Source: Fratercula arctica (lineage: Eukaryota; Chordata; Aves; Charadriiformes; Alcidae). From it: a stretch of DNA of 64,000 nucleotides. Both the position numbers and the translations under genes were made by a program. Below the pieces are notes generated by a model. It was not told the origin of the DNA. It saw only the letters and a list, made by a program, of their open reading frames with translations, and did no database searches. Shown here piece by piece: positions 3,472-59,745 of this stretch (positions within the stretch are counted from its first letter, which is position 1; every line of letters starts with the position of its first letter). Where the stretch lies: assembly GCA_947846985.1 (NCBI GenBank), contig CANTUZ010000027.1, forward strand, positions 5,885,740-5,949,739, read 5' to 3'.

Positions 3472-3671
3472 NNNNNNNNNNNNNNNNNNNNNNNNNNNNN
3501 NNNNNNNNNNNNNNNNNNNNNNNNNNNNNNNNNNNNNNNNNNNNNNNNNNNNNNNNNNNNNNNNNNNNNNNNNNNNNNNNNNNNNNNNNNNNNNNNNNNN
3601 NNNNNNNNNNNNNNNNNNNNNNNNNNNNNNNNNNNNNNNNNNNNNNNNNNNNNNNNNNNNNNNNNNNNNNN
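3472..3671. other. Assembly gap (200 N)
   Basis: A run of exactly 200 N, probably a placeholder length. It begins at the end of a tandem unit, so the true sequence may contain further copies. Confidence 1.
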
Positions 3672-36900: not shown

Positions 36901-38396
36901 TTTTGAGGCTGAAGGTGCCAGGAAAGCCCGGAGCCCCAAGGTCTGTGTGTTGATGGAAGTGGTTTCTAGAGAGCTTTCCAACAAGCCACAGTTTTCCCTC
37001 GTGGCTCCTTGGGCACTTGTCTCAGGTGGTTTCGCTCGTGCTAACAGTCTCCGGACATAGGGTGATTTTTGTGGTCGGCCCTGGGGTGAGTGAGACAGGG
37101 TTGTTTTGAGGCTGAAGGTGCCAGGAAAGCCCGGAGCCCCAAGGTCTTTGTGGCAATTGAAGCAGTTTCTAGAGAGCTTTCCAAAAAGCCACAATTTTCC
37201 CTCGTGGCTCCTTGGGCACGTGTCTCAGTTGGCTTCCCTCGTGCTAACAGTCTCCGGACATAGGGTGATTTTTGTGGTCGGCCCTGCGGCGAGTGAGTCA
37301 GGATTGTTTTGAGGCTGAAGCTGCCAGGAAAGCCCGGGGCCCCAAGGTCTGTGCGGCGATGGAAGCGGTTTCTAGAGAGCTTTCCAACAAGCCACAGTTT
37401 TCCCTTGTGGCTCCTTGGCCACTTGTCTTACGATGCTTCTCTTGTGGCAGCTCTTTCCAGACATATGGTGATTGTTGTGACTGGCCCTGGGGCGAGTGAG
37501 ACATGGTTCTTTTGAAGCTGAAGGTGACAGAAAGGCCAGAGCCCCAAGGTCTGTGTGGCGATGGAAGCGGTTTCTAGAGAGCTTTCCAACAAGCCACAGT
37601 TTTCCCTCGTGGCTCCTTGGGCACGTTTCTCAGCTGGCTTCCCTCGTGCTAACCATCTCCAGACATAGGGTGATTTTTGTGGCTGGCCGTGCGGCGAGTG
37701 AGACAGGGTTGTTTTGAGGCTGAAGGCGCCAGGAAAGCCCGCAGCCCCAAGGTCTTTGTGGCGATGGAAGCGCTTTCTAGAGAGCTTTCCAAGAAGCCAC
37801 AGTTTTCCCTCGTGGCTCCTTGGGCACGTTTGAAACCTGGCTTCCCTTCTGCTAACCGTCTCCGGACATAGGTGCTTTTTGTGGCAGGTCGTGGGGCGAG
37901 TGAGACATGGTTGTTTTGAGGCTGAAGGCGCCAGGAAAGTCCGGAGCCCCAAGGTCTGTGCGACGGTGGAAGCTGTTTCTAGAGAGCTTTCAAACAAGCT
38001 ACAGTTTTCCCTCGTGGCTCCTTGGGCACATGTCTTACGATGCTTCTCTTGTGGCAGTTCTTTCCAGAGATATGGTGATTGTTGTGACTGGCCCTGGGGC
38101 GACTGAGACATGGTTGTTTTGAGGCTGAAGGTGACAGGAAAGCCCAGAACCCCAACATCTGTGTGGCGATGCAAGCGCTTTCTAGAGAGCTTTCCAACAA
38201 GCCACAGTTTTCCCTCGTGGCTCCTTGGGCACGTGTCAAACCTGGCTTCCCTTGTGCTAACCGTCTCCGGAAAGGTGCTTTTTGTGGCAGGTCGTGGGGC
38301 GAGTGAGAGAGGGTTTTTTTGACGCTGAAGGCGCCAGGAAAGCCCGCAGCCCCAAGGTGTGTGTGGTGATGGAAGCGGTTTCTAGAGAGCTTTCCA
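27988..38396. repeat. Satellite array, ~203-bp monomer with two subtypes
   Basis: About 51 head-to-tail monomers of roughly 203 bp, highly similar to one another. The conserved half reads GAAGGCGCCAGGAAAGCCCG then GAGAGCTTTCCAACAAGCCA. Two subtypes differ in the variable half: A has CAGCTGGCTTCCCTCGTGC and ACATAGGGTGATT; B has TTACGATGCTTCCCTTGCGG and GATATGGTGATT. They often alternate but not strictly. Each monomer can encode a ~68-residue frame only because the sequence is stop-poor. No named avian satellite was matched. Confidence 0.95.
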
Positions 38397-38596: not shown

Positions 38597-41500
38597 GAAG
38601 GTGCAGGACATTTGCTATTTTTGAGGCCGGCCCAGGGGCGACTAAGAAAGGTTGCCTTTGAGGATGAAGGCGCCAGGAAAGCATGGAGACCACCAACGTC
38701 TGTGGGGCATGGAAGCGGTTTCCCAGAGAGCTTTAGAAAGAAGCCACAGTTTTCCCTCATGGCTTCCTTCCTACGGGGCCAGGAAGGTCCAGACATTTGT
38801 TATTTTTGTAGACCGACCCAGGGGCGACTAAGAAAGGGTGCCTTTGAGGATGAAGGCGCCAGGAAAGCCTGGAGGCCCCAACGGTCTGTGGGGCAATGGA
38901 AGCGGTTCCCGGAGAGCTTTAGAAAAAGCCAGAGTTTTTCCCCTCATGGCTCCTTGGGCGTGGCATCAATCTCCAGACATGTGGTAATTTTTGAGGCAGG
39001 GGCCTGGGGCGAGTGGAAAAAGGGTTGTTTTGAGGCTGAAGGCTCCAGGAAAGCCCGGAGCCCCAAGGTCTGTGGGGGCAATGGAAGCGGTTCCCAAGAA
39101 GCTTTAGAAGAAGCCACAGTTTTCCCTCATGGCTCCTTCTACGGGGCAGGAAGGTCCAGACATTTGCTATTTTTGAGGCCGGCCCAGGGGCGACTAAGAA
39201 AGGGTTCTTTTGAGGATGAAGGCTCCAGGAAAGCCCGGAGCCCCAAGGTCTGTGGGGCAATGGAAGCGGTTCCCAGAGAGCTTTAGAAGAAGCCACAGTT
39301 TTCCCTCATGGCTCCTTCTACGGGGCAGGAAGGTGCAGACATTTGCTATTTTTGAGGCCGGCCCAGGGGCGACTAAGAAAGGGTGCCTTTGAGGATGAAG
39401 GCGCCAGGAAAGCCTGGAGCCCCAACGTCTGTGGGGCAATGGAAGCGGTTCCCAGAGAGCTTTAGAAAAAGCCAGAGTTTTCCCTCATGGCTCCTTCTAC
39501 GGGGCAGGAAGGTCCAGACATTTGCTATTTTTTTAGACCGACCCAGGGGCGACTAAGAAAGGGTGCCTTTGAGGATGAAGGCGCCAGGAAAGCCTGGAGC
39601 CCCACGTCTGTGGGGCAATGGAAGCGGTTCCCCGGAGAGCTTTAGAAAAAGCCAGAGTTTTCCCTCATGGCTCCTTGGGTGTGGCATCAATCTCCAGACA
39701 TGTGGTAATTTCTGAGGCCGGGCCTGGGGCGAGTGAAAAAGGGTTGTTTTGAGGATGAAGGCGCCAGGAAAGCATGGAGACCCCAGGTCTGTGGGGCAAT
39801 GGAAGCGGTTCCCAGAGAGCTTTAGAAGAAGCCACAGTTTTCCCTCATGGCTCCTTCTACGGGGCAGGAAGGTCCAGACATTTGCTATTTTTGAGGCCGG
39901 CCCAGGGCGACGAAGAAAGGGTGCCTTTGAGCTGAGGCTCCAGGAAAGCCTCCAGAGCCCCAAGGTCTGTGGGGCAATGGAAGCGGTTCCCTGAGAGCTT
40001 TAGAAAAAGCCCACAGTTTTCCCTCATGGCTCCTTGAGCGTGGCAGGAAGGTGCGAGCATTGTTGCTATTTTTGAGGCCGGCCCTGGGGCGAACTAAGAA
40101 AGGTTGCCTTTGAGGATGAAGGCGCCAGGAAAGCATGGAGAGCCCAGGTCTGTGGGGCAATGGAAGCGGTTCCCAGAGAGCTTTAGAAGAAGCACCGTTT
40201 TCCCTACATGGCTCCTTCTACGGGGCAGGAAGGTCCAGACATTTGCTATTTTTTTAGACCGACCCAGGGGCGACTAAGAAAGGGTGCCTTTGAGGATGAA
40301 CGCGCCAGGAAAGCATGGAGCCCCAATGTCTGTGGGGCAATGGAAGCGGTTCCCAGAGAGCTTTAGAAAAAGGCACAGTTTTCCCTCATGGCTCCTTGGG
40401 CGTGGCATCAATCTCCAGACATGTGGTAATTGTTGAGGCCGGGCCTGGGGCGAGTGAAAAGGTTGTTTTTGAGGCTGAAGGCCCCAGGAAAGCATGGAGA
40501 CCCCAGGGTCTGTGGGGCAATGGAAGCGGTTCCCAGAGAGCTTTAGAAGAAGCCACAGTTTTCCCTCATGGCTCCTTCTACGGGGCAGGAAGGTCCAGAC
40601 ATTTGCTATTTTTGAGGCCGGCCCAGGGGCGACTAAGAAAGGGTGCCTTTGAGGATGGAGGGCTCCAGGAAAGCCCGGAGCCCCAAGGTCTGTGGGGCAA
40701 TGGAAGCGGTTCCCTGAGAGCTTTAGAAAAAGCCACAGTTTTCCCTCCTGGATCCTTGGGCGTGGGAGGAAGGTGCGGACATTTGCTATTTTTAAGGCCG
40801 GCCCTGGGGCGACTAAGAAAGTTTGCCTTTGAGGATGAAGGCGCCAGGAAAGCCCGGAGCCCCAACGTCTGTGGGGCAATGGAAGCGGTTCCCAGAGAGC
40901 TTTAGAAAAAGCCACAGTTTTCCCTCATGGCTCCTTGGGTGTGGCATCAATCTCCAGACATGTGGTAATTTTTGAGGCAGGGCCTGGGGCGAGTGAAAAA
41001 GGGTTGTTTTGAGGCTGAAGGCTCCAGGAAAGCCCGGAGCCCCAAGGTCTGTGGGGCAATGGAAGCGGTTCCCTGAGAGCTTTAGAAGAAGCCACAGTTT
41101 TCCCTCATGGTTCCTTGAGCGTGGGAGGAAGGTGCGGACATTTGCTATTTTGAGGCCGGCCCAGGGGCGACGAAGAAAAGTTGCCTTTGAGGATGAAGGC
41201 GCCAGGAAAGCATGGAGAGCCCAGGTCTGTGGGGCAATGGAAGCGGTTCCCAGAGAGCTTTAGAAAGAAGCCACAGTTTTCCCTCATGGCTCCTCCTACG
41301 GGGCAGGAAGGTCCCAGACATTTGCTATTTTTGAGGCCGGCCCCAGGGGCGACTAAGAAAGGGTGCCTTTGAGGATGAAGGCGCCAGGAAAGCCTTGGAG
41401 CCCCAACCGTCTGTGGGGCAATGGAAGCGGTTCCCAAGAGAGCTTTAGAAAAAAGCCTCAGTTTTCCCCTCATGGCTCCTTGGGTGGTGGCATCAATCTC

Positions 41501-44500
41501 CAGACATGTGATAATTTTTGAGGCAGGGGCCTGGGGCGAGTGAAAAAGGGTTGTTTTGAGGCTGAAGGCTCCAGGAAAGCCCGGAGCCCCAAGGTCTGTG
41601 GGGGCAATGGAAGCGGTTCCCAGAGAGCTTTAGAAGAAGCCACAATTTTCCCTCCTGGCTCCTTGGGCGTGGCAGGAAGGTTCAGACATTTTCTATTTTT
41701 GAGGCCGGCCCAGGGGCGACTAAGAAAGGGTTGTTTTGAGGCTGAAGGCGCCAGGAAAGCATGGAGCCCCAACGTCTGTGGGGCAATGGAAGCGGTTCCC
41801 AGAGAGCTTTAGAAAGAGCCACAGTTTTCCCTCATGGCTTCCTTCTACGGGGCAGGGAAGGTCCAGACATTTGCTATTTTTGAAGGCCGGCCCATGGGGC
41901 GACTAAGAAAGGTTGCCTTTGAGGATGAAGGAACCAGGAAAGCCTGGAGACCCCAACGTCTGTGGGGCAATGGAAGCGGTTCCCAGAGAGCTTTAGAAAA
42001 AGCCACAGTTTTCCCTCCTGGCTCCTTCTACGGGGAGGAAGGTCCAGACATTGCTATTTTTTTAGACCGACCCAGGGGCGACTAAGAAAGGGTGCCTTTG
42101 AGGATGAAGGCGCCAGGAAAGCCTGGAGCCCCAACGTCTGTGGGGCAATGGAAGCGGTTCCCAGAGAGCTTTAGAAAAAGCCACAGTTTTCCCTCATGGC
42201 TCCTTGGGCGTGGCATCAATCTCCAGACATGTGGTAATTTTTGAGGCCGGGCCTGGGGCGAGTGAAAAAGGGTTGTTTTGAGGCTGAAGGCTCCAGGAAA
42301 GCCCGGAGCCCCAAGGTCTGTGGGGCAATGGAAGCGGTTCCCTGAGAGCTTTAGAAGAAGCCACAGTTTTCCCTCATGGCTCCTTCTACGGGGCAGGAAG
42401 GTCCAGACATTTGCTATTTTTGAGGCCGGCCCAGGGGCGACTAAGAAAGGGTGCCTTTGAGGATGAAGGCGCCAGGAAAGCCCGGAGCCCCAAGGTCTGT
42501 GGGGCAATGGAAGCGGTTCCCAGAGAGCTTTAGAAGAAGCCACAGTTTTCCCTCATGGCTCCTTCTACGGGGCAGGAAGGTCCAGACATTTGCTATTTTT
42601 GAGGCCGGCCCAGGGGCGACTAAGAAAGGGTGCCTTTGAGGATGAAGGCCGCCAGAAAGCCTGGAGCCCCAAACGTCTGTGGGGCAATGGAAGCGGTTCC
42701 CGGAGAGCTTTAGAAAAAGCCAGAGTTTTCCCTCATGGCTCCTTGGGTGTGGCATCAATCTCCAGACATGTGGTAATTTCTGAGGCCGGGCCTGGGCGAG
42801 TGAAAAAGGGTTGTTTTTGAGGCTGAAGGCTACAGAAAGCCCGGAGCCCCAAGGTCTGTGGGGCAATGGAAGCCGGTCCCAGAGAGCTTTAGAAGAAGCC
42901 ACAGTTTTCCCTCATGGCTCCTTGAGCGTGGCAGGAACGTGCGGACATTTGCTATTTTTGAGGCCGGCCCTGGGGCGACGAAGAAAGGTTGCCTTTGAGG
43001 ATGAAGGCGCCAGGAAAGCATGGAGACCCCAGGTCTGTGGGGGCAATGGAAGCGGTTCCCAGAGAGCTTTAGAAGAAGCCACAGTTTTCCCCTCATGGCT
43101 CCTTCTACGGGGCAGGAAGGTCCAACATTTGCTATTTTTTGAGACCGGCCCCAGGGGCGACTAAGAAAGGGTGCCTTTGAGGATGAAGGCTCCAGGAAAG
43201 CCCGGAGGCCCCCAACGGTCTGTGGGGCAATGGAAGCGGTTCCCTGAGAGCTTTAGAAAAAAGCCACAGTTTTCCCTCCTGGCTCCTTGGGCGTGGCAGG
43301 AAGGTGCGGACATTTGCTATTTTTGAGAGCCGGCCCTGGGGCGACTAAGAAGGTTGCCTTTGAGGATGAAGGCGCCAGGAAAGCCCGGAGCCCCACGTCT
43401 GTGGGGCAATGAAGCGGTTCCAGAGAGCTTTAGAAAAAGCCACAGTTTTCCCTCATGGCTCCTTGGGTGTGGCATCAATCTCCATTCATGTGGTAATTTT
43501 CTGAGGCAGGGCCCTTAGGGCGAGGTGAAAAAGGGTGGTTTTGAGGCTGAAGGCTCCAGGAAAGCCCGGAGCCCCAATGTCTGTGGGGCAATGGAAGCGG
43601 TTCCCTGAGAGCTTTAGAAGAAGCCACAGTTTTCCCTCATGGTTCCTTAGAGCGTGGGAGGAAGGTGCGGGACCATTTGCTATTTTTTGAGATGCCAGGC
43701 CGCCAGGGGCAACTAAGGAAAGGTATGACAACTATAATGAGGATGAGGCGCCCAGGAAAGCATGGAGTCCCCAGGTCTGGTGGGGGCAAAATGGAAGCGG
43801 TTACACAGAGAGCTTTAGAAAGAAGCCACAGTTTTCCCTCATGGCTCCTTAAGGCGTGGCAGGAAGGTTCCAGAACATTTGCCTATTTTTGAGGCCCGGC
43901 CCAGGGGCGAACTAAGAAAGGTGCCTTGAGGATTGAAAGGCGCCAAAGGAAAGCCTGGAGCCCAACTTCTGTGGGGCAATGGAAGCGGTTCCAAGAGAGC
44001 TTTAGGAAAAAGCCTCCAGTTTTCCCTCATGGCTCCCTTGGGTGTGGCATCAATCTCCAGACATGTGATAATTTTTGAGGCAGGGCCTGGGGCGAGTGAA
44101 AAAAGGTTGTTTTGAGGCTGAAGGCTCCAGGAAAGCCCGAGGCCCCAAGGTCTGTGGGCAATGGAAGCGGTTCCCTGAGAGCTTTAGAAGAAGCCACAGT
44201 TTTCCCTACTGGTTCCTTGGGCGTGGGAGGAAGGTGCGGACATTGCTATTTTTGAGGCCAGGCCCTGGGGCGACTAAGGAAGGGTTGCCTTTGAGGATGA
44301 AGGCGCCAGGAAAGCATGGAGAGCCCAGGTCTGTGGGGCAATGGAAGCGGTTCCCAGAGAGCTTTAGAAGAAGCCACAGTTTTCCCTCATGGCTCCTTCT
44401 ACGGGCCAGGAAGGTGCAGACATTTGCTATTTTTGAGGCCGGCCCAGGGGCGACTAAGAAAGGGTGCCTTTGAGGATGAAGGCGCCAGGAAAGCCTGGAG

Positions 44501-47500
44501 CCCCAACGTCTGTGGGGCAATGGAAGCGGTTCCCAGAGAGCTTTAGAAAAAGCCAGAGTTTTCCCTCATGGCTCCTTCTACGGGCCAGGAAGGTCCAGAC
44601 ATTTGCTATTTTTTTAGACCGACCCAGGGGCGACTAAGAAAGGTTGCCTTTGAGGATGAAGGCGCCAGGAAAGCCTGGAGCCCCAACGTCTGTGGGGCAA
44701 TGGAAGCGGTTCCCAGAGAGCTTTAGAAAAAGCCAGAGTTTTCCCTCATGGCTCCTTGGGTGTGGCATCAATCTCCAGACATGTGGTAATTTCTGAGGCT
44801 GGGCCTGGGGCGAGTGAAAAAGGGTTGTTTTGAGGCTGAAGGCTCCAGGAAAGCCCGGAGCCCCAAGGTCTGTGGGGCAATGGAAGCGGTTCCCAGAGAG
44901 CTTTAGAAGAAGCCACAGTTTTCCCTCATGGCTCCTTGAGCGTGGCAGGAACGTGCGGACATTTGCTATTTTTGAGGCCGGCCCTGGGGCGACGAAGAAA
45001 GGGTGCCTTTGAGGATGAAGGCGCCAGGAAAGCATGGAGACCCCAGGTCTGTGGGGCAATGGAAGCGGTTCCCAGAGAGCTTTAGAAGAAGCCACAGTTT
45101 TTCCCTCATGGCTCCTTCTACGGGGCAGGAAGGTCCAGACATTTGCTATTTTTGAGGCCGGCCCAGGGGCGACTAAGAAAGGGTGCCTTTGAGGATGAAG
45201 GCTCCAGGAAAGCCCGGAGCCCCAAGGTCTGTGGGGCAATGGAAGCGGTTCCCTGAGAGCTTTAGAAAAAGCCACAGTTTTCCCTCCTGGCTCCTTGGGC
45301 GTGGGAGCAAGGTGCGGACATTTGCTATTTTTGAGAGCCGGCCCTGGGGCGACTAAGAAAGTTTGCCTTTGAGGATGAAGGCGCCAGGAAAGCCGGAGCC
45401 CCAAACGTCTGTGGGGCAATGGAAGCGGTTCCCAGAGAGCTTTAGAAAAAGCCACAGTTTTCCCTCATGGCTCCTTGGGTGTGGGCATCAATCTCCAGAC
45501 ATGTAGGTAATTTTTGAGGCAGGGCCTGGGGCGAGTGAAAAAGGGTTGTTTTGAGGCTGAAGGCTCCAGGAAAGCCCGGAGCCCCAAGGTCTGTGGGGCA
45601 ATGGAAGCGGTTCCCTGAGAGCTTTACAAGAAGCCACAGTTTTCCCTCATGGTTCCTTGGCGTGGGAGGAAGGTGCGGACATTTGCTATTTTTGAGGCCG
45701 GCCCAGGGGCAACTAAGAAAGGTTGCCTTTGAGGATGAAGGCGCCAGGAAAGCATGGAGTCCCCAGGTCTGTGGGGCAATGGAAGCGGTTCCCATAGAGC
45801 TTTAGAAGAAGCCACAGTTTTCCCTCATGTGCTCCTCCTACGGGGCAGGAAGGTCCAGACATTTGCTATTTTTGAGGCCGGCCCGGGGCGACTAAGAAAG
45901 GGTGCCTTTGAGGATGAAGGCGCCAGGAAAGCCTGGAGCCCCAACGTCTGTGGGGCAATGGAAGCGGTTCCAGAGAGCTTTAGAAAAAGCCTCAGTTTTC
46001 CCTCATGGCTCCTTGGGTGTGGCATCAATCTCCAGACATGTGATAATTTTTGAGGCAGGGCCTGGGGCGAGTGAAAAAGGGTTGTTTTGAGGCTGAAGGC
46101 TCCAGGAAAGCCCGGAGCCCCAAGGTCATGTGGGGCAATATGAAGCGGTTCCCTGAGAGCTTTGAAGAAGCCACAGTTTTCCCTCCTGGCTCCTTGGGCG
46201 TGGGCAGGAAGGTGCGGACATTTGCTATTTTTGAGGCCGGCCCTGGGGCGACTAAGAAAGGTTGCCTTTGAGGATGAAGGCGCCAGGAAAGCATGGAGCC
46301 CCAGGTCTGTGGGGCAATGGAAGCGGTTCCCAGAGAGCTTTAGAAGAAGCCACAGTTTTCCCTCATGGCTCCTTCTACGGTGGCAGGAAGGTCCAGACAT
46401 TTGCTATTTTTGAGGCGGCCCAGGGGCGACTAAGAAAGGGTGCCTTTGAGGATGAAGGCTCCAGGAAAGCCTGGAGCCCCAAGGTCTGTGGGGCAATGGA
46501 AGCGGTTCCCAGAGAGCTTTAGAAGAAGCCACAGTTTTCCCTCATGGCTCCTTCTACGGGGCAGGAAGGTCCAGACATTTGCTATTTTTGAGGCCGGCCC
46601 AGGGGCGACTAAGAAAGGGTGCCTTTGAGGATGAAGGCGCCAGGAAAGCCTGGAGACCCAACGTCTGTGGGGCAATGGAAGCGGTTCCAGAGAGCTTTAG
46701 AAAAAAGCCACAGTTTTCCTCATGGCTCCTTGGGCGTGGGCATCAATCTCCAGACATGTGGTAATTTTTGAGGCCGGGCCTGGGGCGAGTGAAAAACGGT
46801 TGTTTTGAGAGCTGAAGGCTCCAGGAAAGCCCGGAGCCCCAAGGTCTGTGGGGCAATGGAAGCGGTTCCCAGAGAGCTTTAGAAGAAGCCACAGTTTTTC
46901 CCTCATGGCTCTTCTACGGGGCAGGAAGGTCCAGACATTTGCTATTTTTGAGAGCCGGCCCAGGGGCGACTAAGAAAGGGTGCCTTTGAGGATGAAGGCT
47001 CCAGGAAAGGCCGGAGCCCAAGGTCTGTGGGGCAATGGAAGCGGTTCCCAGAGAGCTTTTAGAAGAAGCCACAGTTTTCCCTCATGGCTCCTTCTACGGG
47101 GCAGGAAGGTTGCAGACATTTGCTAATTTTTGAGGCGGGCCCGGGGCGACTAAGAAAGGGTGCCTTTTGAGGATGAAGGCGCCAGGAAAGCCTGGAGCCC
47201 CAACGTCTGTGGGGCAATGGAAGCGGTTCCCAGAGAGCTTTAGAAAAAGCCAGAGTTTTCCCCTCATGGCTCCTTGTACGGGCCAGGAAGGTCCAGACAT
47301 TTGCTATTTTTTTTAGACCGACCCAGGGGCGGACTAAGAAGGGGTGACTTTGAGGGATGAAGGCGCCAGGAAAGCCGGGAAGCCCCAACAGTCTAGTGGG
47401 GCCAATGATGGAAGCGGTTCCCAGGAGAGCTTTAGAAAAAGCCAGAGTTTTCCCGGTCATGTCCCTTGGGTGTGGCATCAATCTCCGAGACATGTGGGTA

Positions 47501-48998
47501 TATTTTTGAAGGCCGGGCCTGGGGCGAGTGGAAAAAAGTGTGTATTTGAAGGCTGAAAGGCTCCAGGAAAGCCCGGAGCCCCAAGGTCTGTGGGCCAAAT
47601 GGAAAGCGGTTCCTGAGAGCTTTAGGAAGAAGCCACAGTTTCCTCCCTCCTGGCTCCTTTGGGCGTGGCAGGGAACGTGCGGACATTTGCTATTTTTGAG
47701 GCCGGCCCTGGGGCGTACGAAGGAAGAAAGGTTTGCCTTTGAGGATGAAGGCGCCAGGAAAGCATGGAGACCCCAGGTCTGTGGGGCAATGGAAGCGGTT
47801 CCCAGAGGAGCTATTAGAAGAAGCCAGTTTCCCTCATGGCTCCTTCTACGGGGCAGGAATGTCAGACATTTGCTATTTTTGAGGCCGGCCCAGGGGCGAC
47901 GAAGAAAGGGTTGCTTTGAGGCTGAAGGCTCCAGGAAAGCCCAGGGCCCCAAGGTCTGTGGGGCAATGGAAGCGGTTCCATGAGAGCTTTAGAAAAAGCC
48001 ACAGTTTTCCCTCAATGGCTCCTTGGCGGGGCAGGAAGGTGCGGACATTTGCTATTTTTGAGGCCGGCCCTGGGGCGACTAAGAAAGGTTGCCTTTGAGG
48101 ATGAAGGCGCCAGGAAAGCATGGAGAGCCCAGGTCTGTGGGGCAATGGAAGCGGTTCCCAGAGAGCTTTAGAAGAAGCCACAGTTTTCCCTCATGGCTCC
48201 TTCTACGGGGCAGGAAGGTCCAGACATTTGCTATTTTTGAGAGCCGGCCCAGGGGCGACTAAGAAAGGGTGCCTTGAGGATGAAGGCTCCAGGAAAGCCT
48301 GGAGCCCCAATGTCTGTGGGGCAATGGAAGCGGTTCCCAGAGAGCTTTAGAAAAAGCCACAGTTTTCCCTCATGGCTCCTTGGGCGTGGCATCAATCTCC
48401 AGACATGTGGTAATTTTTGAGGCCGGGCCTGGGGCGAGTGAAAAAAGGGTTGTTTTGAGGCTGAAGGCTCCAGGAAAGCCTGGAGACCCCAGGTCTGTGG
48501 GGCAATGGAAGCGGTTCCCAGAGAGCTTTAGAAGAAGCCACAGTTTTCCCTCATGGCTCCTTGTGCGTGGCAGGAAGGTCCAGACATTTGCTATTTTTGA
48601 GGCCGGCCCCGGGGCGACTAAGAAAAGGTGCCTTTGAGGATGAAGGCGCCAGGAAAGCCTGGAGCCCAAGGTCTGTGGGGCAATGGAAGCGGTTCCAGAG
48701 AGCTTTAGAAAAAGCCACAGTTTTCCCTCCTGGCTCCTTGGGCGTGGCAGGAAGGTCCAGACATTTGCTATTTTTGAGGCCGGCCCTGGGGCGACTAAGA
48801 AAGTTTGCCTTTGAGGATGAAGGCGCCAGGAAAGCCCGGAGCCCCAAGGTCTGTGGGGCAATGGAAGCGGTTCCCTGAGAGCTTTAGAAGAAGCCACAGT
48901 TTTCCCTCATGGCTCCTTCTACGGGGCAGAAGGTCCAGACATTTGCTATTTTTGAGGCCGGCCCAGGGGCGACTAAGAAAGGGTGCCTTGAGGATGAA
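38597..48998. repeat. Satellite array, ~179-bp monomer related to the 203-bp family
   Basis: About 58 tandem monomers of roughly 178-181 bp. They share the GAAGGCGCCAGGAAAGCC, GGAAGCGGTT and GAGAGCTTTAG...CCACAGTTTTCCCTC blocks with the 203-bp array but lack about 24 bp in the variable half. Subtypes carry CTACGGGGCAGGAAGGTCC, GGCGTGGCATCAATCTCC or GAGCGTGGCAGGAAGGTGC. Copies around 43500-44050 and 47050-47870 hold many single-base insertions. Confidence 0.95.
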
Positions 48999-49990: not shown

Positions 49991-50028
49991 CCTTGTCTTG
50001 CTCTTCCTCGTCCTCTGCTGAGTGTCAC

Positions 50029-50128
50029 CAAGGGGGCCTCTGACTGCCCCATGATTTCACAAAGGAGGGCTCTGACTGCCCCATGATGTCACAAAGGGGG
50101 GACGTGCCCCCCTGCCACACTATAAAAG
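50029..50128 (+). promoter_or_regulatory. TATA promoter with repeated CRE-like motifs, copy 1 of the tandem gene
   Basis: TATAAAAG at 50121-50128 lies about 200 bp before the first candidate ATG (50329). Upstream, a ~33-bp segment CTCTGACTGCCCCATGATGT is present twice, bearing TGATTTCA (50052-50059) and TGATGTCA (50084-50091). The latter differs by one base from the palindromic CRE. CRE plus TATA at this spacing is common in CREB/CREM-driven, often testis, promoters; that reading is inference. This segment is not seen in front of copies 2-4. Confidence 0.6.
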
Positions 50129-50328: not shown

Positions 50329-52075
50329 ATGGGGCGCTCTGACACCGTGCCTCACCTGGGCCCTCTCCTCCTGATCTTGATGCTGCTCAGCGTGTTCTCA
50401 TCTGTGCTGCAGAGCAAGCGGCTTCAGGTAGGCGGCTGTTGCACCACACTGTGCTGCACCACACTGCGCCGCCGCGTGGGGTGGCGAGGGATGGCATGGG
50501 GTGGCGTGGGGGGCTGTGGTGTGGGACTGGGAGGTGCTCCCGTCTCACCCAGCTCCTGGGGACCTTGCAGGAATGGTGGAAGAAGAAGAAGAAGGAGCGT
50601 CAGAGAAGCAAGACAAGAGCCCAGCCAGAGCAGCAGAGCGGTGAGTGAGTGGCCCCAGCACCGAGCACCCTGCAAACGGCCGACAGCCCACGGCAGCCCT
50701 GAGCCGGGGCTGTGCCGGGGGCTGTCAGCGGCTCACTCTGTCTCCTCCCTCCGCAGCTTCTCAGCCAGTGGATGGAGGAGTGAAGAAATGCAGGCCCAAG
50801 CAGGAGAAGCGGTGAGTGTGGGGGAGACCCGAGATGCTGCCCCAGACGCTCACCCCGTGCCCTGCCCCTGCCTGCGCTGGGCGGCCCTGCCTGCCAGCCG
50901 ACGGGGAGTGCTGCCCGCGGGTGCCGCTGGGGTCCGGGGTGCAGCGGGGTCTTTTTCTCCTCCTCTGCAGGGCGAGTGTGGAGGCCTCGAGCAGGAAGCA
51001 CCTCTCCCCACGGGCCCCGCTGGCCACCATGGACTCTGTGCCAGACAGAGGCTCCTCTTCCTTCAACTCCCTCTACTCCTTCCCGCAGCCCTGGCCTGGT
51101 GCGATGGCGGAGCTGGCAGCGCTCAACCGCCCAGAACCCCGCCGTCCCCCCGGGGCTGTCAATGGGAGTGTGGGGGAGCCAGGGCCAGCCCTCTGCCAGG
51201 AGACCCCACTGGAACTGCCGACAAGGAGCAAGCAAGAGCCGGTCCCCAGGGAAAGCAGGGACAGGGCGCAGAGCCCTGTGGACACGGAGCCTTCACCCTG
51301 CAGCCCCCCAGCCATGGCCATGGACCAAGGGGAGCTGATCGCAGGGCTCCGCCGCTCTTTCGAGGCCACCCAGGAGATGGCCAGGCAGTGCTATGAGATG
51401 CTGAAGGTGCTGCAGGCCTATTGGCAAGGGGCAGCGGGGGCCCGTGGTCAGAACCTCCCCGGGGAGCCCTTCCATCCCCTGGGCAGGATGGAGGCGCAGG
51501 AGCAGCTGGGGGCCACAGTGAAGCCCCAGCACCTGGGAGTGGAGCGGCTGCGTGTGGATGAGAACATGGTTGCGGCTGAAGATGGGGACAAGGAGAAGGA
51601 CATGGGACCAGACAGAAGTGTGAAGGAGAAGCAAAGGAGCAGCCCTGTGGAGCTCGGCAGGGGGAGCCTGGCGGAAGCGAAGAGAAACAGCAACGTGGCG
51701 TCAGGCAAGAACAACTCCATGGGGCCAAGCACCCGCAGCCCCCCAGGCTCAGGCAGGAGCACCGCCATGGATGCGGAAGGGAGGAGGGACAGGGCGCAGA
51801 GCCCCATGAACGTGGAGCTGCCCCCCAGCAGTGCCCTAGCCGAGGCCATGGACAACAGGGAGCTCTACTTGGACCTCTTGTACGCTTTCAAGACCTGGGA
51901 GGAGAGGCAGCAGCGCGGCAAGCCCGTGGACAGGGAGCGTGACCAGGCCTCCCCAGGGCTGTGCCCGGTAGGATGGTGCCCGTGTCAGTGCTGCATCCGG
52001 CTCTGGCACCGCCTGAAGGACTGGTGGAGATGCTGCTGCCGGCCCCGCCGCGTCCGCTTCAGCAGTTTCCCCTAA
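50329..52075 (+). CDS. Unrecognised avian gene, tandem copy 1 (complete)
   Basis: Exons 50329-50427, 50571-50640, 50757-50811 and 50971-52075 join in phase to 442 codons. Exon 1 encodes a hydrophobic N-terminus (PLLLILMLLSVFSSVL), exon 2 a basic stretch EWWKKKKKERQRSK. The large exon alone gives 348 residues from ATG 51029, which sits in an ideal Kozak context (GCCACCATGG). Numbered from that Met, two related segments begin RDRAQSP (77-120 and 253-296), each followed by MD and an EL/L helix-like stretch. The C-terminus is cysteine- and Trp-rich (312-337: WCPCQCC, DWWRCCC) then basic. This suggests a membrane-anchored protein, possibly acylated; that is inference. The layout (anchor then WWKKKK) loosely recalls SPATA31-type proteins, but no homology is shown. 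Function unknown. Confidence 0.75.
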
Positions 52076-52128
52076 TGGCCGGGAAGCGTGGGGCCGGGAA
52101 CGCCCCTGGGGTGCCCTTCTTATGAACC

Positions 52129-52134
52129 AATAAA
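52129..52134 (+). terminator. Poly(A) signal, copy 1
   Basis: AATAAA lies 54 bases after the stop codon, followed by a T-rich TATTTTCTCTGTCC stretch. Confidence 0.85.
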
Positions 52135-52662
52135 AAAGTCAATATTTTCTCTGTCCCTGTGACTGTCAGCAGATCAATTTTGTCCCTTGACAGGAGCAGA
52201 GAATCAGTTTTGTGTAAGGACAACAGTATGTGCTACAGTCATCCCAACTCTCCCGTGGAGATGCGGGGGCCCTTGTGTCTTGCACCCCATCCTAAGAGAC
52301 GGACAACTTCTATTACCGTTAGAAGATGCTGCGCCCTCAGCTCATGCCATGATCTTATTTGACATATCGGAAATTATCCCAGGTACGAGAGTAGATCCAA
52401 AGACGATTTCTAGAAAGCTTTGCAGATCCCTGCTGTTCATTGGAAGCTCTGCAGTGCACGAGAACTTAAAGAGCGCTGTCAGCAACCATCAGGCCGTGTG
52501 CTTCCCTCAGGCGTGCAAAGACCGGATGCTCATTGACACGGGTCAAGGCTGTTGCACACCTTTGGTGGCACATCCTCCGTGACACCAAAGGGCTGTGACA
52601 TGGGCACCAGTTAATTTACATCTGCTGTAGACGTTTGTGTATTGCCAAAAGGGAGCAGAACC
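52135..52662. other. Inter-copy spacer 1
   Basis: Non-repetitive spacer between the poly(A) signal of copy 1 and the alternative first exon of copy 2, repeated after each copy (54419-54946, 56705-57232, 58984-59511). It holds an open frame of 131 codons (52187-52582) kept in all four spacers, with only one residue difference (Arg to Ser in spacer 2). No TATA box is evident. Origin not recognised. Confidence 0.7.
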
Positions 52663-54359
52663 ATGAGTGCAGGCAGACGCAGGCTACAGCTCTGCAAGAG
52701 CAAGCGGCTTCAGGTAGGCGGCTGTTGCACCACACTGTGCTGCACCACACTGCGCCGCCGCGTGGGGTGGCGAGGGATGGCATGGGGTGGCGTGGGGGGC
52801 TGTGGTGTGGGACTGGGAGGTGCTCCTGTCTCACCCAGCCCCTGGGGACCTTGCAGGAATGGTGGAAGAAGAAGAAGAAGCAGCGTCAGAGAAGCAAGAC
52901 AAGAGCCCAGCCAGAGCAGCAGAGCGGTGAGTGGCCCCAGCACCGAGCACCCTGCAAACGGCCGACAGCCCACGGCAGCCCTGAGCCGGGGCTGTGCCGG
53001 GGGCTGTCAGCTGCTCACTCTGTCTCCTCCCTCCGCAGCTTCTCAGCCAGTGGATGGAGGAGTGAAGAAATGCAGGCCCAAGCAGGAGAAGCGGTGAGTG
53101 TGGGGGAGACCCGAGATGCTGCCCCAGACGCTCACCCCGTGCCCTGCCCCTGCCTGCGCTGGGCGGCCCTGCCTGCCAGCCGACGGGGAGTGCTGCCCGC
53201 GGGTCCCGCTGGGGTCCGGGGTGCAGCGGGGTCTTTTTCTCCTCCTCTGCAGGGCGAAGTGTGGAGGCCTCGAGCAGGAAGCACCTCTCCCCACGGGCCC
53301 CCGCTGGCCACCATGGACTCTGTGCCAGACAGAGGCTCCTCTTCCTTCAACTCCCTCTACTCCTTCCCGCAGCCCTGGCCTGGTGCGATGGCGGAGCTGG
53401 CAGCGCTCAACCACCCAGAACCCCGCCGTCCCCCCGGGGCTGTCAATGGGAGTGTGGGGGAGCCAGGGCCAGCCCTCTGCCAGGAGACCCCACTGGAACT
53501 GCCGACAAGGAGCAAGCAAGAGCCGGTCCCCAGGGAAAGCAGGGACAGGGCGCAGAGCCCTGTGGACACGGAGCCTTCACCCTGCAGCCCCCCAGCCATG
53601 GTCATGGACCAAGGGGAGCTGATCGCAGGGCTCCGCCGCTCTTTCGAGGCCACCCAGGAGATGGCCAGGCAGTGCTATGAGATGCTGAAGGTGCTGCAGG
53701 CCTATTGGCAAGGGGCAGCGGGGGCCTGTGGTCAGAACCTCCCCGGGGAGCCCTTCCATCCCCTGGGCAGGATGGAGGCGCAGGAGCAGCTGGGGGCCAC
53801 AGTGAAGCCCCAGCACCTGGGAGTGGAGCGGCCGCGTGTGGATGAGAACATGGTTGCGGCTGAAGATGGGGACAAGGAGAAGGACATGGGACCAGACAGA
53901 AGTGTGAAGGAGAAGCAAAGGAGCAGCCCTGTGGAGCTCGGCAGGGGGAGCCTGGCGGAAGCGAAGAGAAACAGCATCGTGGCGTCAGGCAAGAACAACT
54001 CCATGGGGCCAAGCACCCGCAGCCCCCCAGGCTCAGGCAGGAGCACCGCCATGGATGCGGAAGGGAGGAGGGACAGGGCGCAGAGCCCCATGAACGTGGA
54101 GCTGCCCCCCAGCAGTGCCCTAGCCGAGGCCATGGACAACAGGGAGCTCTACTTGGACCTCTTGCACGCTTTCAAGACCTGGGAGGAGAGGCAGCAGCGC
54201 GGCAAGCCCGTGGACAGGGAGCGTGACCAGGCCTCCCCAGGGCTGTGCCCGGTAGGATGGTGCCCGTGTCAGTGCTGCATCCGGCTCTGGCACCGCCTGA
54301 AGGACTGGTGGAGACGCTGCTGCCGGCCCCGCCGCGTCCGCTTCAGCAGTTTCCCCTAA
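52663..54359 (+). CDS. Unrecognised avian gene, tandem copy 2
   Basis: Exons 52663-52713 (alternative first exon, MSAGRRRLQLCKSKRLQ), 52857-52926, 53039-53093 and 53253-54359. Relative to copy 1 the large exon carries two extra bases before the Kozak ATG (GCGAAGTG at its start, and a longer C-run before CGCTGG), so the upstream exons do not read in frame into it. From ATG 53313 the 348-codon frame is intact. Differences from copy 1 include Arg-34 to His, Leu-174 to Pro, Asn-222 to Ile, Tyr-285 to His and Cys-335 to Arg. The hydrophobic exon 1 of copy 1 is absent. Either translation starts at the internal ATG or the extra bases are errors. Confidence 0.65.
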
Positions 54360-54412
54360 TGGCCGGGAAGCGTGGGGCCGGGAACGCCCCTGGGGTGCCC
54401 TTCTTATGAACC

Positions 54413-54418
54413 AATAAA
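54413..54418 (+). terminator. Poly(A) signal, copy 2
   Basis: AATAAA at the same distance from the stop as in copy 1, with an identical downstream T-rich stretch. Confidence 0.85.
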
Positions 54419-54946
54419 AAAGTCAATATTTTCTCTGTCCCTGTGACTGTCAGCAGATCAATTTTGTCCCTTGACAGGAGCAGAGAATCAGTTTTGTGTA
54501 AGGACAACAGTATGTGCTACAGTCATCCCAACTCTCCCGTGGAGCTGCGGGGGCCCTTGTGTCTTGCACCCCATCCTAAGAGACGGACAACTTCTATTAC
54601 CGTTAGAAGATGCTGCGCCCTCAGCTCATGCCATGATCTTATTTGACATATCGGAAATTATCCCAGGTACGAGAGTAGATCCAAAGACGATTTCTAGAAA
54701 GCTTTGCAGATCCCTGCTGTTCATTGGAAGCTCTGCAGTGCACGAGAACTTAAAGAGCGCTGTCAGCAACCATCAGGCCGTGTGCTTCCCTCAGGCGTGC
54801 AAAGACCGGATGCTCATTGACACGGGTCAAGGCTGTTGCACACCTTTGGTGGCACATCCTCCGTGACACCAAAGGGCTGTGACATGGGCACCAGTTAATT
54901 TACATCTGCTGTAGACGTTTGTGTATTGCCAAAAGGGAGCAGAACC

Positions 54947-56645
54947 ATGAGTGCAGGCAGACGCAGGCTACAGCTCTGCAAGAGCAAGCGGCTTCAGGTA
55001 GGCGGCTGTTGCACCACACTGTGCTGCACCACACTGCGCCGCCGCGTGGGGTGGCGAGGGATGGCATGGGGTGGCGTGGGGGGCTGTGGTGTGGGACTGG
55101 GAGGTGCTCCCGTCTCACCCAGCTCCTGGGGACCTTGCAGGAATGGTGGAAGAAGAAGCAGCGTCAGAGAAGCAAGACAAGAGCCCAGCCAGAGCAGCAG
55201 AGCGGTGAGTGAGTGGCCCCAGCACCGAGCACCCTGCAAACGGCCGACAGCCCACGGCAGCCCTGAGCCGGGGCTGTGCCGGGGGCTGTCAGCGGCTCAC
55301 TCTGTCTCCTCCCTCCGCAGCTTCTCAGCCAGTGGATGGAGGAGTGGAAGAAATGCCAGGCCCAAGCAGGAGAAGCGGTGAGTGTGGGGGAGACCCGAGA
55401 TGCTGCCCCAGACGCTCACCCCGTGCCCTGCCCCTGCCTGCGCTGGGCGGCCCTGCCTGCCAGCCGACGGGGAGTGCTGCCCGCAGGTCCCGCTGGGGTC
55501 CGGGGTGCAGCGGGGTCTTTTTCTCCTCCTCTGCAGGGCGAGTGTGGAGGCCTCGAGCAGGAAGCACCTCTCCCCACGGGCCCCGCAGGCCACCATGGAC
55601 TCTGTGCCAGACAGAGGCTCCTCTTCCTTCAACTCCCTCTACTCCTTCCCGCAGCCCTGGCCTGGTGCGATGGCGGAGCTGGCAGCGCTCAACCACCCAG
55701 AACCCCGCCGTCCCCCCGGGGCTGTCAATGGGAGGGTTGGGGGAGCCAGGGCCAGCCCTCTGCCAGGAGACCCCACTGGAACTGCCGACAAGGAGCAAGC
55801 AAGAGCCGGTCCCCAGGGAAAGCAGGGACAGGGCGCAGAGCCCTGTGGACACGGAGCCTTCACCCTGCAGCCCCCCAGCCATGGTCATGGACCAAGGGGA
55901 GCTGATCGCAGGGCTCCGCCGCTCTTTCGAGGCCACCCAGGAGATGGCCAGGCAGTGCTATGATATGCTGAAGGTGCTGCAGGCCTATTGGCAAGGGGCA
56001 GCGGGGGCCCTGTGGTCAGAACCTCCCCGGGGAGCCCTTCCATCCCCTGGGCAGGATGGAGGCGCAGGAGCAGCTGGGGGCCACAGTGAAGCCCCAGCAC
56101 CTGGGAGTGGAGCGGCCTGCGTGTGGATGAGAACATGGTTGCGGCTGAAGATGGGGACAAGGAGAAGGACATGGGACCAGAGCAGAAGTGTGAAGGAGAA
56201 GCAAAGGAGCAGCCCTGTGGAGCTCGGCAGGGGGAGCCTGGCGGAAGCGAAGAGAAACAGCAACGTGGCGTCAGGCAAGAACAACTCCATGGGGCCAAGC
56301 ACCCGCAGCCCCCCAGGCTCAGGCAGGAGCACCGCCATGGATGCGGAAGGGAGGAGGGACAGGGCGCAGAGCCCCATGAACGTGGAGCTGCCCCCCAGCA
56401 GTGCCCTAGCCGAGGCCATGGACAACAGGGAGCTCTACTTGGACCTCTTGCACGCTTTCAAGACCTGGGAGGAGAGGCAGCAGCGCGGCAAGCCCGTGGA
56501 CAGGGAGCGTGACCAGGCCTCCCCAGGGCTGTGCCCGGTAGGATGGTGCCCGTGTCAGTGCTGCATCCGGCTCTGGCACCGCCTGAAGGACTGGTGGAGA
56601 TGCTGCTGCCGGCCCCGCCGCGTCCGCTTCAGCAGTTTCCCCTAA
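54947..56645 (+). pseudogene. Unrecognised avian gene, tandem copy 3 (frameshifted)
   Basis: Exons 54947-54997, 55141-55204, 55321-55377 and 55537-56645. The large exon from ATG 55595 is 1051 bases instead of 1047 because of four separate 1-base insertions: near 55735 (GGGAGGGTTGGG), 56010 (GCCCTGTGG), 56117 (CGGCCTGCG) and 56181 (CAGAGCAGAAG). The conserved frame is therefore broken and regained. Exon 3 also has two extra bases (GTGGAAG, TGCCAGG). Exon 2 has three rather than five AAG codons. Codon content is otherwise preserved, so this is either a very young pseudogene or a poorly polished copy. Confidence 0.65.
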
Positions 56646-56698
56646 TGGCCGGGAAGCGTGGGGCCGGGAACGCCCCTGGGGTGCCCTTCTTATGAACC

Positions 56699-56704
56699 AA
56701 TAAA
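56699..56704 (+). terminator. Poly(A) signal, copy 3
   Basis: AATAAA with the same context as the other copies. Confidence 0.85.
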
Positions 56705-57232
56705 AAAGTCAATATTTTCTCTGTCCCTGTGACTGTCAGCAGATCAATTTTGTCCCTTGACAGGAGCAGAGAATCAGTTTTGTGTAAGGACAACAGTATG
56801 TGCTACAGTCATCCCAACTCTCCCGTGGAGATGCGGGGGCCCTTGTGTCTTGCACCCCATCCTAAGAGACGGACAACTTCTATTACCGTTAGAAGATGCT
56901 GCGCCCTCAGCTCATGCCATGATCTTATTTGACATATCGGAAATTATCCCAGGTACGAGAGTAGATCCAAAGACGATTTCTAGAAAGCTTTGCAGATCCC
57001 TGCTGTTCATTGGAAGCTCTGCAGTGCACGAGAACTTAAAGAGCGCTGTCAGCAACCATCAGGCCGTGTGCTTCCCTCAGGCGTGCAAAGACCGGATGCT
57101 CATTGACACGGGTCAAGGCTGTTGCACACCTTTGGTGGCACATCCTCCGTGACACCAAAGGGCTGTGACATGGGCACCAGTTAATTTACATCTGCTGTAG
57201 ACGTTTGTGTATTGCCAAAAGGGAGCAGAACC

Positions 57233-58925
57233 ATGAGTGCAGGCAGACGCAGGCTACAGCTCTGCAAGAGCAAGCGGCTTCAGGTAGGCGGCTGTTGCAC
57301 CACACTGTGCTGCACCACACTGCGCCGCCGCGTGGGGTGGCGAGGGATGGCATGGGGTGGCGTGGGGGGCTGTGGTGTGGGACTGGGAGGTGCTCCCGTC
57401 TCACCCAGCTCCTGGGGACCTTGCAGAAGTGGTGGAAGAAGAAGCAGCGTCAGAGAAGCAAGACAAGAGCCCAGCCAGAGCAGCAGAGCGGTGAGTGAGT
57501 GGCCCCAGCACCGAGCACCCTGCAAACGGCCGAAGCCCACGGCAGCCCTGAGCCGGGGCTGTGCCGGGGGCTGTCAGCGGCTCACTCTGTCTCCTCCCTC
57601 CGCAGCTTCTCAGCCAGTGGATGGAGGAGTGAAGAAATGCCAGGCCCAAGCAGGAGAAGCGGTGAGTGTGGGGGAGACCCGAGATGCTGCCCCAGACGCT
57701 CACCCCGTGCCCTGCCCCTGCCTGCGCTGGGCGGCCCTGCCTGCCAGCCGACGGGGAGTGCTGCCCGCGGGTCCCGCTGGGGTCCGGGGTGCAGCGGGGT
57801 CTTTTTCTCCTCCTCTGCAGGGCGAGTGTGGAGGCCTCGAGCAGGAAGCACCTCTCCCCACGGGCCCCGCTGGCCACCATGGACTCTGTGCCAGACAGAG
57901 GCTCCTCTTCCTTCAACTCCCTCTACTCCTTCCCGCAGCCCTGGCCTGGTGCGATGGCGGAGCTGGCAGCGCTCAACCGCCCAGAACCCCGCCGTCCCCC
58001 CGGGGCTGTCAATGGGAGTGTGGGGGAGCCAGGGCCAGCCCTCTGCCAGGAGACCCCACTGGAACTGCCGACAAGGAGCAAGCAAGAGCCGGTCCCCAGG
58101 GAAAGCAGGGACAGGGCGCAGAGCCCTGTGGACACGGAGCCTTCACCCTGCAGCCCCCCAGCCATGGCCATGGACCAAGGGGAGCTGATCGCAGGGCTCC
58201 TCCGCTCTTTCGAGGCCACCCAGGAGATGGCCAGGCAGTGCTATGAGATGCTGAAGGTGCTGCAGGCCTATTGGCAAGGGGCAGCGGGGGCCCGTGGTCA
58301 GAACCTCCCCGGGGAGCCCTTCCATCCCCTGGGCAGGATGGAGGCGCAGGAGCAGCTGGGGGCCACAGTGAAGCCCCAGCACCTGGGAGTGGAGCGGCTG
58401 CGTGTGGATGAGAACATGGTTGCGGCTGAAGATGGGGACAAGGAGAAGGACATGGGACCAGACAGAAGTGTGAAGGAGAAGCAAAGGAGCAGCCCTGTGG
58501 AGCTCGGCAGGGGGAGCCTGGCGGAAGCGAAGAGAAACAGCATCGTGGCGTCAGGCAAGAACAACTCCATGGGGCCAAGCACCCGCAGCCCCCCAGGCTC
58601 AGGCAGGAGCACCGCCATGGATGCGGAAGGGAGGAGGGACAGGGCGCAGAGCCCCATGAACGTGGAGCTGCCCCCCAGCAGTGCCCTAGCCGAGGCCATG
58701 GACAACAGGGAGCTCTACTTGGACCTCTTGCACGCTTTCAAGACCTGGGAGGAGAGGCAGCAGCGCGGCAAGCCCGTGGACAGGGAGCGTGACCAGGCCT
58801 CCCCAGGGCTGTGCCCGGTAGGATGGTGCCCGTGTCAGTGCTGCATCCGGCTCTGGCACCGCCTGAAGGACTGGTGGAGACGCTGCTGCCGGCCCCGCCG
58901 CGTCCGCTTCAGCAGTTTCCCCTAA
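57233..58925 (+). CDS. Unrecognised avian gene, tandem copy 4
   Basis: Exons 57233-57283, 57427-57490, 57606-57661 and 57821-58925. The 348-codon frame from the Kozak ATG at 57879 is complete and has the same length as in copies 1 and 2. Exon 3 has one extra base (TGCCAGG) compared with copies 1 and 2, so the spliced upstream frame would enter exon 4 out of phase. Exon 2 begins AAG TGG TGG rather than GAA TGG TGG and has a shorter Lys run. Protein differences from copy 1 include Arg-108 to Leu, Asn-222 to Ile, Tyr-285 to His and Cys-335 to Arg. Function unknown. Confidence 0.65.
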
Positions 58926-58977
58926 TGGCCGGGAAGCGTGGGGCCGGGAACGCCCTGGGGTGCCCTTCTTATGAACC

Positions 58978-58983
58978 AATAAA
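58978..58983 (+). terminator. Poly(A) signal, copy 4
   Basis: AATAAA one base closer to the stop than in copies 1-3, due to a shorter C-run upstream. Confidence 0.85.
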
Positions 58984-59511
58984 AAAGTCAATATTTTCTC
59001 TGTCCCTGTGACTGTCAGCAGATCAATTTTGTCCCTTGACAGGAGCAGAGAATCAGTTTTGTGTAAGGACAACAGTATGTGCTACAGTCATCCCAACTCT
59101 CCCGTGGAGATGCGGGGGCCCTTGTGTCTTGCACCCCATCCTAAGAGACGGACAACTTCTATTACCGTTAGAAGATGCTGCGCCCTCAGCTCATGCCATG
59201 ATCTTATTTGACATATCGGAAATTATCCCAGGTACGAGAGTAGATCCAAAGACGATTTCTAGAAAGCTTTGCAGATCCCTGCTGTTCATTGGAAGCTCTG
59301 CAGTGCACGAGAACTTAAAGAGCGCTGTCAGCAACCATCAGGCCGTGTGCTTCCCTCAGGCGTGCAAAGACCGGATGCTCATTGACACGGGTCAAGGCTG
59401 TTGCACACCTTTGGTGGCACATCCTCCGTGACACCAAAGGGCTGTGACATGGGCACCAGTTAATTTACATCTGCTGTAGACGTTTGTGTATTGCCAAAAG
59501 GGAGCAGAACC

Positions 59512-59545
59512 ATGAGTGCAGGCAGACGCAGGCTACAGCTCTGCA
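59512..59545 (+). CDS. Start of tandem copy 5 (cut by gap)
   Basis: The alternative first exon (MSAGRRRLQL...) is present again after the fourth spacer and runs into the gap after CTCTGCA, so at least one further copy is implied. Only the first 11 codons are visible. Confidence 0.6.
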
Positions 59546-59745
59546 NNNNNNNNNNNNNNNNNNNNNNNNNNNNNNNNNNNNNNNNNNNNNNNNNNNNNNN
59601 NNNNNNNNNNNNNNNNNNNNNNNNNNNNNNNNNNNNNNNNNNNNNNNNNNNNNNNNNNNNNNNNNNNNNNNNNNNNNNNNNNNNNNNNNNNNNNNNNNNN
59701 NNNNNNNNNNNNNNNNNNNNNNNNNNNNNNNNNNNNNNNNNNNNN
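59546..59745. other. Assembly gap (200 N)
   Basis: A run of exactly 200 N that starts at the unit boundary of the tandem gene array. Sequence after it is unrelated. Confidence 1.

Follow-up and report, generated by a model that had tools for sequence, protein, structure and literature searches.

One complete and three truncated copies of an unnamed multicopy gene family of gulls and their relatives in a stretch of the genome of Fratercula arctica

The window analysed here is the whole stretch of 64,000 nucleotides from Fratercula arctica at C27:5885740-5949739 (contig CANTUZ010000027.1), and the genome searched was the 1.2146-Gb assembly in 28 contigs. Near its right end the window carries a tandem array of four units with a period of 2279-2286 bases. 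GT/AG sites around the small exons and an AATAAA signal are present in all four units, and the exon-4 ATGs at 51029, 53313, 55595 and 57879, each within GCCACCATGG, open a frame of 348 codons in units 1, 2 and 4 and a frame with a stop at codon 122 in unit 3. An earlier reading made from the sequence alone, which had described four units of about 2.28 kb with conserved splice sites, AATAAA and three of four 348-codon frames intact, was thus borne out by the sequence. That reading had also treated the units as four comparable genes, which is not supported, since the TATA box, the 5' untranslated region (UTR) and a hydrophobic exon 1 occur only in unit 1 and the other three units lack both the promoter and the true exon 1. 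In unit 1, four exons with GT/AG borders join into a single open frame of 442 codons starting at the ATG at 50329. The features are listed below, read from the sequence unless another basis is given.

50025..50120, + strand: promoter-proximal repeat of two 32-bp units, recognised by the 32-bp spacing and the cores resembling the cAMP response element (CRE)
50052-50059 and 50084-50091, + strand: CRE-like cores, TGATTTCA and TGATGTCA, respectively
50121..50127, + strand: TATA box TATAAAA of unit 1, behind the CRE-like cores
50329..50427, + strand: coding part of exon 1, 33 codons, with a hydrophobic segment of 18-19 residues
50571..50640, + strand: exon 2, WWKK, Lys-rich, whose splice sites are conserved both among the near copies and in C14:8243026-8244405
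50757..50811, + strand: exon 3, from the alignment of copies
50971..52075, + strand: coding part of exon 4, stop TAA at 52073-52075, containing the 348-codon open reading frame (ORF) 51029-52075
52129..52134, + strand: AATAAA of unit 1
52141..52698, + strand: spacer, which is the 3' flank of the gene and whose end serves, fortuitously, as alternative first exon for the following unit (ATG 52663)
52699..54424, + strand: unit 2, without promoter or true exon 1; exon-4 ATG frame 53313-54359 open
54983..56710, + strand: unit 3, lacking promoter and true exon 1; the exon-4 ATG frame, beginning at 55595, has a stop at codon 122
57269..58989, + strand: unit 4, without promoter or true exon 1; exon-4 ATG frame 57879-58925 open
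58990..59545, + strand: spacer after unit 4, cut by a 200-N scaffold gap at 59546

Fourteen near copies were aligned: the four units of the window, five copies on C1 (836-859 kb, C1_1 to C1_5) and five elsewhere on C27 (4.931-4.959 Mb, C27_1 to C27_5). The true exon 1 is present in 8 of the 14, and its ATG is kept in all eight, whereas the exon-4 ATG is found in only two of these eight, unit 1 and C1_4, the position being ACG in C1_5 and GTG in C27_1-5. Therefore, the protein includes the hydrophobic N-terminus, and the 348-codon ORF is an internal part of the frame. The Kozak ATG in exon 4, proposed as the start by the sequence-only reading, was rejected, because six of the eight exon-1-bearing near copies have no ATG there and three of these six have an open frame from exon 1. 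The hydrophobic segment, which had been called optional, belongs to the true exon 1. The six near copies without this exon (units 2-4 and C1_1-3, with C1_1 cut by a gap) all have the exon-4 ATG.

The TATA/CRE promoter is visible in four of the eight exon-1-bearing near copies and all four are frame-open (unit 1, 442 codons; C1_4 and C1_5, 462 codons each; C27_1, 441 codons). It is deleted in C27_2, C27_3 and C27_4, which are frame-broken and have a 2-bp deletion in exon 4 in common, and a gap hides the promoter region of C27_5, whose full spliced frame is open over 441 codons. Frame and promoter thus go together in the near copies, yet the number of independent events behind this is small owing to common descent. 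At C27:4937817-4953213, the block missing from three of five tandem copies is about 280 bp long and holds the CRE-like repeats and TATA, the same three copies being frame-broken. At C1:848406-858927, two complete tandem copies lie about 8.36 kb apart, with 60 bp of exon 4 duplicated in frame.

Homologues were found in two gull species by three protein searches, each limited to scoring the roughly 8000 candidates with most words in common. Eight public protein relatives were obtained, two from Larus michahellis, two from Chroicocephalus ridibundus and four from short ENA contigs (P0003, at 37%, P0005, P0006 and P0007). The best of these, P0001, has 77% identity over 73% of the query (E 5.9e-149) and is collinear over most of exon 4; P0002, P0004 and P0008 are also homologous to the family protein, and only P0001 was matched when the C14 relative served as the query. 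The homologous NCBI models LOC141737469 and LOC141737456 (Larus michahellis) and LOC134514842 (Chroicocephalus ridibundus) lie on the largest scaffold, which is chromosome 1. Unlike unit 1, the gull models start at an internal Met or retain intron-like sequence, and P0002 leaves the family frame part-way. P0004, from Chroicocephalus ridibundus and 70% identical over 12% of the query, bears the name 'zinc finger protein AEBP2-like', which looks spurious because the model holds intron-like sequence and has no Pfam domain listed.

Pfam gave nothing above the curated cut-off for the 442-aa protein, a 139-aa spacer ORF or seven aligned family members, and Rfam gave no match at the gathering threshold. 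The solved structures yielded one chance-level match (E 0.44), the plasmid collection had no match to the family, and none of the titles and abstract starts listed from the open literature describes it. A transposable element was rejected as an explanation, no reverse transcriptase, transposase or other element domain being detected in the unit with Pfam or Rfam; kinship with such an element had been named in the sequence-only reading as what would refute a gene. The same reading's proposal of an unrecognised, intron-containing and recently amplified bird gene family is supported by the homologues in two gull species, by exon 1 at 15 places in the genome and by the lack of a Pfam family above its curated cut-off.

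These 15 places came from an exon-1 search with 27 matches, the others being seven exon-2 and five chance-like matches; seven are on C14, six on C27 and two on C1. For exon 4, at least 49 matches were found, on C1, C14, C23, C24 and C27. Five TATA-bearing places on C14 were examined. The copy at C14:8243026-8244405 keeps six of six splice sites and has a 333-codon frame with the full layout, at about 70% DNA identity to unit 1 over the aligned exon 4. The copy at C14:7617127 has no ATG and runs into unrelated sequence at its end after 329 open codons. Three copies at 4.64-4.67 Mb keep exons 1 and 2 and have stops at codons 195, 232 and 176; exon 3 was missed by the motif used in the copy with the stop at 176. 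A stop at codon 57 appeared in another alignment, in which the exon-2 border was misplaced.

The C1 cluster is flanked by a nicotinic acetylcholine receptor alpha gene (C1:826-836 kb), most similar to alpha-7 and after that to alpha-9, and by an ADP-ribosyltransferase gene (859.7-866 kb), with a reverse-transcriptase fragment between the receptor gene and the cluster. We take this interval to be the CHRNA10-ART neighbourhood. The scaffolds of the named gull relatives (224.38 and 220.91 Mb) match chromosome 1 in the gull data notes, which give blood and muscle, and not testis, as the sources of RNA. Copies also occur on C1 of this genome, but the window itself is scaffolded on C27.

Units 2-4 have upstream ATGs of their own at 52663, 54947 and 57233. 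The flank that holds these ATGs is plain 3' flank after the C1 and C27 genes, where it diverges beyond CTGCAAG, so that the short unit must have been formed by a join at a short common stretch. The idea that the alternative exon 1 of units 2-4 is a designed second promoter was rejected on this ground. A deletion or unequal exchange at the GCAAG/AGCAAGC microhomology fused the end of exon 1 with the 3' flank of the gene, yielding promoterless 2.28-kb units, which then multiplied. With the alternative ATG as start, stops are reached at codon 181 in unit 2 and at codon 198 in unit 4, and unit 3 is open over 426 codons with two segments frameshifted; in the C1 counterparts, the frame is open over 426 codons (C1_2) and 424 codons (C1_3). 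Substitutions are few in unit 3, yet it has several small indels, either real or due to sequencing error. Exon 4 of unit 1 differs from that of units 2-4 by 4-7 nonsynonymous and 0 synonymous changes. Units 2-4 are probably pseudogenes or dependent on read-through. The spacer at 52141-52698 has relatives (89% and 81% identity) at C1:7022879-7023417 and C15:3341766-3342155, and no exon-1 or exon-4 match was reported there.

The TATA box is found behind CRE-like cores at nine places in the genome, unit 1 among them, and arrays of the 32-bp repeat with 5 to 42 cores lie before or near C14 copies. Three C14 copies retain promoter and first exon with 76-77% identity, and promoter pieces without a recognisable gene occur on C13, C15, C18 and C14. 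A separate gene behind the C13, C15 and C18 promoter copies was considered and rejected on C18, the one of the three that was read, in which a 300-base stretch is, by eye, a frameshifted exon 1 of the array family. The CRE-like core differs from CRE by a single mismatch. According to a study of round spermatids of the mouse, 13% of the CREM sites have a full CRE, the majority have a one-mismatch CRE or half-CREs and some have none, and TATA is not enriched among the regulated promoters (PMC3091680). From the promoter core, we infer a link to germ cells. Furthermore, 6 kb past the window end, C27:5956009-5959739 holds an array of the 32-33-bp promoter repeat with at least about 104 units.

In the predicted protein of 442 residues (69 Lys+Arg versus 53 Asp+Glu), the best 19-residue Kyte-Doolittle mean is 2.13, at residues 9-27, with a basic stretch next to it. 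The positive-inside rule places the basic flank of a membrane segment on the cytoplasmic side, and the C-terminal part would likely be cytoplasmic by this rule. The structure model of the exon-4 product has a mean predicted local distance difference test (pLDDT) score of 44, with helices at 23-32, 100-138, 267-295 and 320-337 of 348 residues, the three longer ones within an otherwise low-confidence model; judged from this model, the product is mostly disordered or unmodelled. The layout would then be a hydrophobic anchor at 9-27, a cytoplasmic-type flank WWKKKKK, then a Ser/Pro-rich stretch of about 300 residues, mostly disordered and containing a helical motif in duplicate, and finally a helical tail rich in Cys, Trp and Arg. 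In mammals, SPATA31 (FAM75) proteins have an N-terminal transmembrane segment and are encoded by multicopy testis genes with short first exons and a long last exon. SPATA31/FAM75 was not among the Pfam matches of the array family, and the likeness is one of layout only.

Taken as a whole, this is a real, unnamed multicopy family of gulls and their relatives. With a probability of roughly 45%, we read it as a fast-evolving, lineage-specific family in which unit 1 is a complete gene whose product is disordered, tethered to a membrane and most likely at work in male germ cells. The TATA promoter of unit 1 with its CRE-like 32-bp repeats would drive a transcript for the 442-residue protein, which would evolve under conflict or very loose constraint. 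The anatomy of the unit, the history of the copies and their kinship are shown, and transcription, orientation in the membrane, activity in germ cells and function are inferred. As the site of function, the male germ line is our best guess, and one with clearly less than even odds. The case for a coding gene is that frames are open in the promoter-bearing near copies, indels keep the frame and homologues occur in gulls. In one codon-blind alignment of unit 1 with C14:8243026-8244405, the coding indels (6, 6, 3, 6, 30, 6, 132, 9, 6, 3, 24, 114 and 12) were multiples of three in 13 of 13 cases versus 6 of 11 for non-coding indels, the end gap being left out of the latter (Fisher p 0.011, when two neighbouring gaps, of 101 and 13, are merged into one of 114). 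In the near pairs, the coding indels were 3 and 60 (2/2 multiples of three) and the non-coding ones 4, 1, 1 and 11; pooling these with the first comparison gave p 0.0007 or 0.009 depending on the counting rule. Frame-keeping is broken in C27_2-4, in units 2-4 and in the C14 copies at 4.64-4.67 Mb.

Several results weigh against this interpretation. When the gaps of 101 and 13 were counted apart, 12 of 14 coding indels were multiples of three (p 0.18). Substitutions were even over the codon positions (68, 77 and 71 for the C14 relative; 20, 27 and 18 for C27_1; 9, 11 and 11 for C1_4), and omega, the ratio of nonsynonymous to synonymous substitution rates (dN/dS), was 0.89, 0.90 and 0.67 in the true frame for the same three pairs, within the range of control frames. 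In addition, TGATGTCA alone occurs at chance frequency within the window, and four of the nine TATA-bearing places, all on C14, lose the family frame. Codon-aligned omega was 0.75 (0.57-0.99) against the C14 relative, 0.94 (0.55-1.80) for C27_1, 1.12 (0.65-2.26) for C27_5, and 0.57 and 0.53 for C1_4 and C1_5, with intervals up to 1.11 and 1.09. Neither an omega clearly below 1 nor a deficit of changes at codon positions 1 and 2, the marks of purifying selection, was found in the pairs tested, so that the dN/dS below 1 to which the sequence-only reading had looked for support did not materialise, control frames giving similar omega. Frames are kept in the promoter-bearing near copies and residues are not demonstrably constrained, a combination that fits the fast evolution of a disordered protein and also decay.

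It is also possible, with odds only just short of even, that the array is a misplaced contig of the C1:836 kb array rather than part of C27, which would be compatible with the germ-cell reading. C27 is 5.99 Mb long and the window lies near its end, with gaps of exactly 200 N at 3472, 15644, 27788, 38397, 48999 and 59546 and about 10-12 kb in each of the five inner stretches between them; the order and placement of the stretches here therefore depend on scaffolding. The array is one such contig (49199-59545) with a 200-N gap on either side, and since the contig stops at the gap, the right end of the array is cut. Misplacement would account for unit 4 and C1_3 differing by only three substitutions over about 1650 aligned bases, for the C1 contig beginning mid-unit right after a 500-N gap and the window contig breaking off within a unit at a 200-N gap, and for the named gull relatives lying on chromosome 1. 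However, the 5' flank of unit 1 is nearer to the C27:4.93-Mb copy (94.9%) than to C1_4 (90.9%), and C27 carries other copies.

A serious alternative, which we hold to be a substantial minority possibility, is that most copies are in decay or non-coding: a gene that once coded would have left remnants, now being amplified with nearby satellites, and the open frames would reflect GC-rich DNA and recent common descent. Long ORFs in other frames are frequent in this GC-rich DNA, and ORF length by itself is therefore weak evidence. C14:8243026-8244405 is open in the same frame even through its introns and 5' UTR (544 codons). Besides the even codon positions and the omega no lower than in control frames for the pairs tested, decay is favoured by a divergence that is not lower in the coding sequence (CDS) than in introns (0.054 versus 0.031 for C27_1, Fisher p 0.07; 0.030 versus 0.022 for C1_4, p 0.50), by the broken frames of C27_2-4, several promoterless copies and the four C14 copies with TATA, and by the C18 promoter relic with its frameshifted exon 1. 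In contrast, decay does not readily explain why 4/4 promoter-visible near copies are open and 3/3 promoter-deleted ones broken, why coding indels keep the frame, why three C14 copies retain promoter and first exon, or why the gull homologues have long collinear frames. A functional family acting in immune or other somatic cells and expanded by pressure from pathogens is unlikely: fast change, copy-number growth and the ADP-ribosyltransferase gene beside the C1 cluster would fit it, but no Pfam domain, immune or other, is above the cut-off, and neighbourhood is not the same as function.

Within the reading as a lineage-specific germ-cell family, the array resembles the general kind of lineage-specific multicopy reproductive or conflict genes in its recent tandem amplification, fast change and restricted known range; the family is ordinary in kind and new in identity. 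What is gained is a corrected gene model and, on chromosome 1, an address with an alpha7/9-like nicotinic receptor gene on one side and an ADP-ribosyltransferase gene on the other, for a family known from public models only in part and without function or name. Transcription in spermatids would make it a multicopy germ-cell family of the avian lineage whose members have a repeat promoter in common; failing that, it would be a clear case of GC-rich satellite regions producing gene-like arrays. A far-fetched extension is a self-amplifying germ-line conflict family, in which the promoter repeat would have grown from two to at least 100 satellite units on the same microchromosome and the protein would be spermatid-expressed, frame-keeping, membrane-tethered and disordered. 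Were this true, a freely changing sequence with a kept frame would be expected of a meiotic driver or its suppressors.

The window is mostly satellite. The stretches 27988-38396 and 38597-48998 are tandem satellites with units of about 203 bp and about 180 bp, which are similar by eye and have stretches in common that include ACAGTTTTCCCTC and TGGCTCCTT. Beside GC-rich satellites, 1-2109 is a very AT-rich minisatellite with units of about 14 bp, the GC content being 5% over 1-2000.

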